Shown in pieces: positions 26,216 to 28,324 of a DNA stretch of 48,618 bases (positions are counted from its first letter, which is position 1; each line of letters begins with the position of its first letter). Position numbers and translations under genes: made by a program. The DNA comes from Betaproteobacteria bacterium (lineage in GTDB: Bacteria; Pseudomonadota; Gammaproteobacteria; Burkholderiales; Burkholderiaceae_C). The notes beneath the pieces are model-generated. The model saw nothing but the letters and a program-made list of their open reading frames with translations. It made no database searches and was not told where the DNA came from. The DNA is taken from contig JABCYW010000033.1 of the NCBI GenBank assembly GCA_013289985.1, positions 1-48,618 on the forward strand, read 5' to 3'.

Positions 26216-26426
26216 CGCTTCGCGCGGGTCGAGGTTACCCGCTGCGCCAAGGTGGGCGCGCACTTGGCTCGCCGTCAAACGGGCGCCTGAATCCGGCCTG
26301 GACGGCCGGATTCCGAGGGCACTCGTTCAAAGTTCGTCCGCGTGTGCGGGCGGGCCGCGCCCGGGGCCTTTGCCACGCGCCGCCACGCCCTCGACGGCCC
26401 GGTTTGCCGTCTCGCCAAGTACACGC
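26216..26426 (+). repeat. Left copy, outer part, of a ~335-bp unknown repeat (interrupted by the insertion sequence)
   Basis: Positions 26216-26307 match the reverse complement of 28233-28324 at 86 of 92 bases. About 93 bases (26308-26400) then have no counterpart in the other copy; they end with a second CTCGACGGCC-like segment. Positions 26402-26426 (GTTTGCCGTCTC, G, CCAAGTACACGC) resume the repeat and are repeated again after the insertion sequence. The DNA is GC-rich and carries no recognisable protein domain. Confidence 0.85.
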
Positions 26427-26456
26427 TGACCTTGCCCGTGGAATCCGTATCCCATA
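26427..26456 (+). repeat. Left terminal inverted repeat of the IS3-family element
   Basis: Begins TGACCTTGCCC and continues with GGAA and CGTATCCC blocks. It matches the reverse complement of 27691-27720 at about 25 of 30 positions. Confidence 0.88.
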
Positions 26457-26474
26457 GCTAAGTCATGAGCCGGC

Positions 26475-27359
26475 TCACGCAGCCTGAGCCTCGAGCCAGT
26501 TTTCCTCGAACTGCATCGGGCTGACGTAGGCCAGCGTCGAGTGCAGTCGCGTCCGGTTGTACCAGAGCATCCAGTCGATCGTTTCGTCCCTGGCAGCCCG
26601 CCTGGTCGCAAATCGTTGACCGTGAAGTCTTTCCACCTTCAGCGATCCAAACAGCGTCTCGCTGCAGGCGTTGTCCCAGCAGTTGCCACGCCGGCTCATC
26701 GATGCCGTGATGCCGTACTCGGTCAAGACGTCCCTGAAGTCCCGGCTCGCATATTGACTGCCTCGGTCGCTGTGGAAGATCAGGCCGCGGTCCGGGCTGG
26801 GATGGCGCTTGAACCAAGCCATCCGCAGCGCGTCGATGACGATCTCGCGCGACATGTCATTGCGCATCGACCAGCCAACGACCTGGCGGCTGAATAGGTC
26901 GATCACGACAGCGAGGTACATCCATCCTTCGTCGGTGTCGATGTATGTGATGTCTCCGGCCCAGACCTTGTCCGGCTCGTCGACCTCGAACTGCCGATCC
27001 AGCAAGTTCGCCGCGATTGGGAAGTCGTGATTGCTGTCTGTAGTGATCCGGAAACGTCGCTTGGCCTTGGCACGGATGCCATGGCGCTGCATCGATTGCT
27101 GCACGCGCTCCTTGCCAACTTTGAAGCCACGGGCGAGCAGTTCTCTCCAGATTCGCGGCCAGCCGTAGGCCCCGTGGGTCTCAGCGTGGATGGCTCGAAT
27201 GTGCACGAGCAGCGCTTCATCGCTGACGTGTTTGCGCGGTGCGTCGAGCGCCCGGCGGGCGACATGCTCGTGATAGCCCGCGGTGCTCACCTTCAGCACA
27301 CGACACTGCACCGAAACCGGCCACAGACGTCGATGTCCTCCGATGAAGGCGTACTTCAC
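26475..27359 (-). CDS. IS3-family transposase OrfB (DDE integrase domain)
   Basis: 294 residues starting at GTG 27359, which overlaps the OrfA stop (GTGA). An N-terminal HTH_21-like segment ([33 protein letters not shown]) precedes the rve catalytic core. The DDE triad is visible: Asp in [12 protein letters not shown], Asp in [12 protein letters not shown], and Glu in [16 protein letters not shown]. The C-terminal [23 protein letters not shown] is typical of the family. In many IS3 elements OrfA and OrfB are fused by a -1 frameshift; here I see no A-rich slippery run, only the overlapping start, so reinitiation is more likely. Intact. Confidence 0.95.
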
Positions 27360-27658
27360 TTTCTTGCTTTCGCGAAGTACGCCGTCGCTTTTTCCAGGAT
27401 GTCGCGCTCCATCTTGACGCGCGCCAGCTCGGCCTTCAGGCGGCTGATTTCCATCTCTTGGGCATTGACAGGCTTGCTGTCTGCGCCGACCAACTCCACG
27501 CCAGCACGTTTGTTCTTTACCCAGTTGAACAGCGTCTGATCGGCCAACCCCAGCTTGCGGGCCGCCTCGGCCATGCTCAGCCCGCTCTCGACCAGCCGCA
27601 CGGCCTCCTCTTTGAACTCACGCGTGTAGGTGCCGCGCAGCTGCTTCTGTTTCACCAT
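27356..27658 (-). CDS. IS3-family transposase OrfA (helix-turn-helix)
   Basis: 100 residues from ATG 27658, with AAGGAG eight bases upstream. The N-terminal helix-turn-helix ([27 protein letters not shown], then [13 protein letters not shown]) binds the terminal repeats. A C-terminal leucine-zipper-like coiled coil ([26 protein letters not shown]) is typical for IS3 OrfA multimerisation. The stop overlaps the OrfB start by four bases. Confidence 0.95.
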
Positions 27659-27690
27659 TTTCCGTTCTCCTTGCTTGCTTAGGCGCTCAG

Positions 27691-27720
27691 TAAGGGATAC
27701 GTTTTCCGGGGGCAAGGTCA
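27691..27720 (-). repeat. Right terminal inverted repeat of the IS3-family element
   Basis: Read on the minus strand it starts TGACCTTGCCC, followed by CCGGAAAACGTATCCC. It lies just upstream of orfA and probably also carries the element's promoter. Confidence 0.88.
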
Positions 27721-27960
27721 GTTTGCCGTCTCCCCAAGTACACGCCCACCTCGACGCCGGTTCACCCAGGCGGTTGGGACAAATACGGCTCTCCGTTTTA
27801 AATGGTGATTTGGCATCGCCGGGCCATCGAGGCCGCGACGATGCCCGCGGCCGACATCGACACCGGGCGCCGGGCCTGACGCGAACCACGGGCCGCGATG
27901 TCGGCGTTCCTTCTCGTGCTTGACGAAGCGCGCGCCTGCGGCGCTGCGCCGCGCGGCTTG
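27721..27960 (+). repeat. Left copy, inner part, of the ~335-bp unknown repeat
   Basis: Two blocks match the right copy in reverse complement: 27721-27786 against 28165-28230 (63 of 66 bases), and 27812-27886 against 28064-28138 (75-bp blocks, clearly similar with a short divergent centre). Weaker similarity continues through CCTTCTCG and CGCCTGCGGCGC segments to near 27960. The first 25 bases repeat those just left of the insertion sequence. Confidence 0.85.
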
Positions 27961-27989
27961 GACTTCTTCGATCATCCGTGCGGCCTGCC

Positions 27990-28324
27990 GAAGCGCTTTG
28001 CGCGGCGCCGCAGGCGACGCGCATCGTCGGACTCGAGAAGGAGCGTTGGCGCCTCGAGGTGATGTTCGCGTCAGGCCCGGTGCCCCGTGGTCGGGTTGGC
28101 CGCGGGCATCGTCGCGGCCTCGATGGCCCGGCGATGCCGAAGTACTTATTTAAATAGGAGCGCTGTGTTTGTCCCAACCGCCCGGGTGAACCGGCGTCGA
28201 GGTGGGCGTGTACTTGGGGAGATGGCAAACCGGGCCGTCGAGGCCGGATTCAGGCGCCCGTTTGACGGCGAGCCAAGTGCGCGCCCACCTTGGCGCGGCG
28301 GGTAACACCGGCCAGCGCGAAGCG
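27990..28324 (-). repeat. Right copy of the ~335-bp unknown repeat, uninterrupted
   Basis: This is the only copy without an insertion and defines the unit: about 335 bp, read on the minus strand from 28324. It opens with CGCTTCGCGC, contains GGTTTGCCATCTCCCC and the TTGGGACAAACAC segment, and finishes in GC-rich sequence containing CGCCTGCGGCGCCGCG. An odd AT island (about 28141-28157, TACTTATTTAAATAG) interrupts conserved blocks and differs from the left copy. No protein family is recognisable. Confidence 0.85.

Follow-up and report, generated by a model that had tools for sequence, protein, structure and literature searches.

A probable palindromic, non-autonomous transposon family with ISL3-type ends in a Betaproteobacteria genome

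The inverted repeat and its flanks

The window, the whole stretch of 48,618 nucleotides that was analysed, carries a large interrupted inverted repeat beside a GH64 beta-1,3-glucanase gene (28402-30171) which also encodes a CBM56 module and an Inhibitor_I36 (crystallin-like) stretch. A sequence-only reading had begun the repeat unit at 26216, but the left side continues outward to a degraded terminal repeat, GGTGCATTGCCCGATTGGCGGGG, on the forward strand at 26116-26138 (compare GGTTCATCGCCGATCTGCGGGG). It is adjoined by an A/T-rich octamer, ACGAAAAA (26108-26115), a candidate target duplication with no recognised partner on the right, and homology of the left flank with relatives ends close by, at 26117 (G003), 26104 (G001) and 26099 (G002). 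The left outer arm (26216-26312), an inter-arm segment (26313-26401), whose counterpart is missing from the right side of this copy, and a 25-bp piece of the left inner arm (26402-26426) follow on the forward strand. An IS3-type insertion sequence lies within the left arm on the reverse strand (26427-27720), with orfA (HTH_Tnp_1, 27356-27658) and orfB (rve integrase-core, 26475-27359) also on that strand. Beyond it are the left inner arm (27721-27803) and the left conserved core (27808-27928, forward; model R1), the palindrome centre (27929-28021), and then, on the reverse strand, the right conserved core (28022-28142; model R1), the right inner arm (28148-28230) and the right outer arm (28233-28324). 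In the right flank (28325-28401), from 28324 to the stop codon of the GH64 gene at 28402, no terminal repeat was recognised. Besides those of the inserted IS, no open reading frames of the element were recognised by eye, the Pfam run having covered the IS proteins only.

The three arm pairs lie where the sequence-only reading placed them, with 86 of 92, 63 of 66 and 67 of 75 bases identical in opposite orientation, and longer ungapped alignments extend over 97, 83 and 137 nt at 92, 92 and 76% identity. The proposed unit of about 335 bp is truly repeated but forms only one arm of a larger element. A 93-bp piece of the left copy, which had been taken for an extra segment, is not extra in alignment. 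A matching segment occurs in both arms of four of the six other aligned long copies (C21, C22, C76 and C107), and in the remaining two (C64 and C138) one side is cut before its position, which indicates that the right arm of the window copy has lost its counterpart.

The IS3-type element is bracketed by a 25-bp direct repeat with one mismatch (26402-26426 and 27721-27745). The usual IS3 duplication is far shorter than 25 bp. The same IS in copy C138 begins at another place.

In the relatives G003 and G002, an OmpA-family gene precedes the MFS gene, and the gene that GH64 faces is rpoZ; in G001, the two window flanks each lie at the start of a contig. The genome studied here has its OmpA gene close to the end of contig C76 and rpoZ close to the start of contig C4, and each of these contigs breaks inside a family copy. 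Since the two flanks have different neighbours in relatives, the left edge is the side of one insertion next to the MFS gene, and the right edge comes from a different insertion. Two events fit the window flanks, a recombination of inverted copies or a misjoin by way of the 1.3-kb IS, and the 25-bp imperfect repeat beside the IS also fits with either event. As judged from these arrangements, the window copy is recombined or misassembled, and the join of its two flanks is not secure. That the palindrome itself is an assembly artefact is a serious possibility, if somewhat short of probable. The differing neighbours, the OmpA and rpoZ contigs that end inside copies and the repeat around the IS speak for it, but the head-to-head structure recurs at 20 other loci of this genome and at five loci of two relatives, and recombination between inverted copies accounts for the flanks equally well. 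The artefact, if there is one, would therefore be the join of the window copy and not the family. The worry about assembly raised by the sequence-only reading holds for that join; the palindromic family is real.

Copies, subfamilies and distribution

A BLAST search with the unit 27990-28324, as that reading had proposed, uncovered a multicopy family. There are 73 matches in the same genome, including the unit itself and its own left arm, and the best match outside the window copy has an E value of 1.6e-105, so the inverted repeat is not a chance feature. A covariance model of one arm (121 positions) was built from 51 arms, two more being too near a contig end, and was searched over the window, 33 other loci of this genome and six loci of relatives. 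Because these arms also served to build the model, its scores describe the family and do not test it; independent support comes from BLAST. At a score of at least 40 bits, the conserved core is found at 26 loci of this genome, the window included. Two arms stand head to head at 21 of them (one second arm is cut by a contig end), and the other five have a single arm at a contig end. Eight further loci (L048-L055), all near contig ends, have outer pieces only. Pieces at contig ends may be halves of one copy, which makes the copy number uncertain, and the family accounts for a number of the contig breaks in this draft genome. Long palindromes are usually unstable in bacteria, so one would not expect a single genome to carry a few dozen near-palindromes that reach about 1 kb in length.

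The window copy aligns with C21, C22, C64, C76, C107 and C138 in a long subfamily. A second subfamily shares the inner core and has different outer arms. The two cores within one element are 71-84% identical (24 elements), and for 45 of 48 arms the closest relative sits in a different element, which suggests that the inverted pair had formed before the family spread. Short tandem repeats with units of 6-8 bp crowd the outer edges of several copies (L041:1790-1850, L045:2240-2297, L075:60-130 and the flanks of L074), which may point to frequent slippage or repair next to the palindrome.

BLAST over 60 genomes gave matches in ten. The long ones are in G000, G001 and G002, which belong to one genus, and no match was found in G003 of the same genus; diverged copies are thus present in two of three same-genus genomes. 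The matches in the seven other genomes are short, and remained so (15-55 bases) when recompared at seven loci. The covariance model, run over 200 genomes of the same family with stricter filters and 18 candidates scored per genome, in a draw that evidently held neither G001 nor G002, found this genome and G168 only (E 9e-4), and the G168 match reads by eye as coding sequence. An exact core pattern occurred in four contigs of the genome_contigs set, all from the two relatives, and in none of the viral_contigs set. Plasmids had no match to either subfamily, and phages none to the second, the subfamily tried there. The Rfam search of 26000-28500 returned only one sub-threshold match (terC, E 0.33), and at six other loci the matches lay solely outside the element. 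No description of this element was noticed in a literature search, which does not show that none exists.

Ends, landing sites and ISL3-type relatives

The true outer ends of the family are terminal repeats of the type GGTTCATCGCCGATCTGCGGGG that adjoin an 8-bp A/T-rich target duplication. With one mismatch allowed, the end motif occurs at 22 sites in this genome, seven in G001, two in G010 and one in G063, and at none in the other 145 of 149 genomes; a reversed control gave 0. Seven elements of this genome have paired terminal ends, spaced 225 to 1008 bp apart, and the window copy keeps only its degraded left end. Some long copies have an alternative type, GCTCGTTGGTAGACGCC, as their left end, and recognisable ends are missing from several copies, among them C107 and, on its right side, the window copy.

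Both ends could be placed in 15 elements (seven in this genome, four in G001, one in G010 and three ISL3 elements), of which 12 are non-autonomous; copies without recognisable ends were left out of the duplication count. Mapping of these ends and of their target duplications showed that the flanking octamers agree at 100 of 120 positions, compared with a mean of 44 when right octamers were shuffled among elements, and none of 100,000 shuffles reached that value. Two of the 15 pairs are weak (C113 and G001 C87, 4/8 each) and four are middling (C24, G010, C331 and C418, 6/8 each). At least six A/T letters are present in 26 of 30 octamers, against 1.0% of octamers in the fetched loci. Copy C22 has a clean empty site: G003 carries a single T8 tract, behind a terminator, where this genome has T8, 982 bp and T7. 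The corresponding site in G001 holds another insert, of 363 bp, with the same kind of ends. At copy C24, G003 homology stops at L063:1798 and the terminal repeat begins at 1800, with no clean empty site on the right side; none was found for copy C107. Other non-autonomous elements with the same ends and different interiors were seen in G010 (L164:867-1522) and G001 (L175, L177 and L179), and one such element lies in another genus, between two T-tracts.

Similar ends are present on three ISL3-family insertion sequences of other genera (G063, G007 and G068), in a comparison that covered these and loci L186 and L187. The G063 locus holds a 1320-bp element with an ISL3 transposase (PF01610, PF13542 and PF14690), which agrees with the end motif at 17 of 22 letters on the left and 20 of 22 on the right and has an 8/8 duplication. 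The G007 and G068 elements (one of two G007 copies was examined) have ends of the type GGTTCTTCAC and 8/8 duplications in A/T tracts, and their transposases are 50% identical to that of G063. The ISL3 loci L186 and L187 have no such ends. A resident ISL3 transposase was sought and rejected, none being found in G000-G003 at E 1e-20. The sole PF01610 match in this genome passes the Pfam cut-off but falls in the tail of a desaturase-like protein (L162:742-1968), in which residues 254-403 match the ISL3 transposase profile and the N-terminal part is a fatty acid desaturase; this match is possibly chance or misleading.

The elements tend to lie behind terminators. In 10 of 11 non-autonomous elements with both ends placed (G001 C87 was left out), a hairpin followed by a T-run points at the element from one side, and this holds for all seven in this genome. 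The same arrangement was found at 9 of 15 single ends and, with either side counted, at 66 of 600 control A/T octamers taken from the same loci, a pool that includes the elements' own sites; the cut-offs were set by us. A bacterial small SRP RNA (E 1.8e-12) lies at L172:2112-2208, with about 390 bp between it and the 225-bp element of contig C67.

Very probably, the window feature is a large palindromic MITE, a non-autonomous transposon with ISL3-type ends, in a copy that an IS3-type element has interrupted. The case for mobility is firm, and the suggestion of a family of non-autonomous mobile DNA is borne out by the terminal repeats, the 8-bp duplications, the empty site and the ISL3-like ends elsewhere. 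The best reading of the family is an orphan ISL3-type MITE with an unusually conserved and palindromic interior. An ISL3 transposase, since lost or supplied from elsewhere, would have excised the element at GGTTCATC...GATGAACC and inserted it into A/T octamers. Such octamers are rare in a G+C-rich genome and terminator T-tracts would be a good supply of them, so copies would collect just behind genes. Against this reading count the lack of a mover at hand in G000-G003, the two octamer pairs with only 4/8 agreement, the copies with alternative or unrecognisable ends and the conserved interior; an orphan MITE does not require a resident mobilising transposase, but the mover can only be inferred. 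The family is a case of ISL3-type elements that land in the T-tracts of terminators in a G+C-rich genome.

Hairpins of the interior and comparison with known systems

The conserved interior is not expected of an ordinary MITE. Between groups of copies, boxes (with limits set by eye) are 87-92% identical and spacers 47-56%, compared with 30% for composition-shuffled spacers. The core hairpin is kept in nearly all 51 arms; one pair is T-A, A-T, G-C or C-G and the other pairs hardly vary. At this variable pair, which covaries in other copies, the window copy shows a C-A mismatch in each of its two core hairpins. The second subfamily has an outer stem of 17 bp that is paired in 98.9% of cells (28 arms, 14 distinct), with invariant loop letters. 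The search for compensatory changes found nine of the stem's 17 pairs changed on both sides, a count reached in 10 of 500 shuffles, and a covariation of 0.403, against 0.161 when shuffled and at most 0.092 when slid, with fewer pair types than in shuffles. Because the pattern used to choose the arms favours G-rich starts and C-rich ends, no weight can be placed on the invariant outer pairs. Covariation thus supports the outer stem strongly and the core mainly through one pair. G-U pairs occupy 0 of 280 cells of the outer stem and 3 of 1122 cells of the core.

The sequence-only reading had also allowed for a structured regulatory or chromosomal element. The hairpins do covary, but the near-absence of G-U pairs suggests that the pairing belongs to DNA rather than RNA, as a DNA hairpin. 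We consider it about an even bet, on the sequence comparisons, that pairing is kept at the DNA level. The two arms would have arisen by an inverted duplication older than the family spread, and their hairpins, as a cruciform or as single-strand hairpins, would be held in register through template-switch correction of imperfect palindromes, through selection on how well the element itself moves, or through both. Template-switch correction could maintain pairing without selection, but it does not explain the invariant loop letters. A bolder proposal gives the inverted arms a function of their own, as a structured module of single-strand DNA in which the loops are fixed and the stems covary freely; a host or transposon protein would recognise it, and selection would keep it on a transposon moved in trans. 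We hold this to be rather improbable; were it true, the element would be a bacterial foldback-type element in which the interior, and not only the ends, is the working part. In any case, the covarying hairpins of the family form a natural series from which G-U intermediates are almost missing, and with which palindrome correction at the DNA level could be told apart from selection on RNA.

It is unlikely that selection in the cell acts on the interior as one or two structured RNAs, with the mobile ends only as a vehicle. The retained core hairpin, the outer stem with its two-sided changes, the invariant loops and the boxes conserved above the spacers would all suit such an RNA. Many changes would, however, pass through G-U in RNA, and such pairs are nearly missing; moreover, no Rfam family matches the element, and the inverted duplication makes both strands alike.

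Far less plausible still is a REP/BIME/REPIN-type element moved by a RAYT transposase. The genome has three Y1_Tnp (RAYT-like) genes, and the second subfamily is centred on a REPIN-like inverted pair that is also found alone elsewhere. However, BLAST of three family members against the three RAYT loci gave nothing beyond an 18-base match, and CGTC is not fixed in the core hairpin, where T, A, G and C all occur at its third position. Nor are duplications of 8 bp or long terminal repeats known as traits of REP sequences. A RAYT/REP origin was rejected, as no element lies beside the three RAYT-like genes. These genes (L084, L085 and L086) have by eye their own repeats on both sides, unlike the family element. 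The REPIN-like pair, GTCATTCCGCGCGCAGTCGCGGAATCCA ... TGGATCCTGCGACTTCGCGCAGGATGAC (L063:2148-2231), matches at 11 of 11 fetched solo loci in this genome and G001 (L151-L161). The earlier suggestion of a decayed gene pair has nothing for it beyond the lack of a product, and the multicopy, palindromic family with conserved boxes and stems, terminal repeats and duplications leaves it scarcely credible.

Group IIC introns target intrinsic terminators, and the family is like them in inserting directly behind these; it differs in that its target is an A/T octamer, which is duplicated, and in that the element has no Rfam match. A group II intron was considered from the target alone and dropped. REP, BIME and REPIN sequences are likewise palindromic, repeated and near gene ends, and the REPIN-like pair in the centre of one subfamily adds to the likeness, but the family has terminal repeats with duplications, is much larger and has no tag tetranucleotide, a fixed GTAG or CGTC being absent from the short hairpin, where a letter inside CGTC varies over four bases. 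Foldback elements (Galileo, FB), which are eukaryotic and have long inverted arms with short tandem repeats near their outer ends, resemble the family in both features and in a possible role in rearrangement. The family differs in being bacterial and non-coding with ISL3-type ends, and the two are likened by features, not homology. The nearest counterparts are ISL3-derived MITEs, with which the family shares the lack of recognised coding sequence, terminal inverted repeats, 8-bp A/T-rich duplications, the presence of several copies and ends resembling those of ISL3 elements; it differs in that no ISL3 partner was found in the genome, in its size of up to about 1 kb, and in its conserved palindromic interior with covarying hairpin stems.
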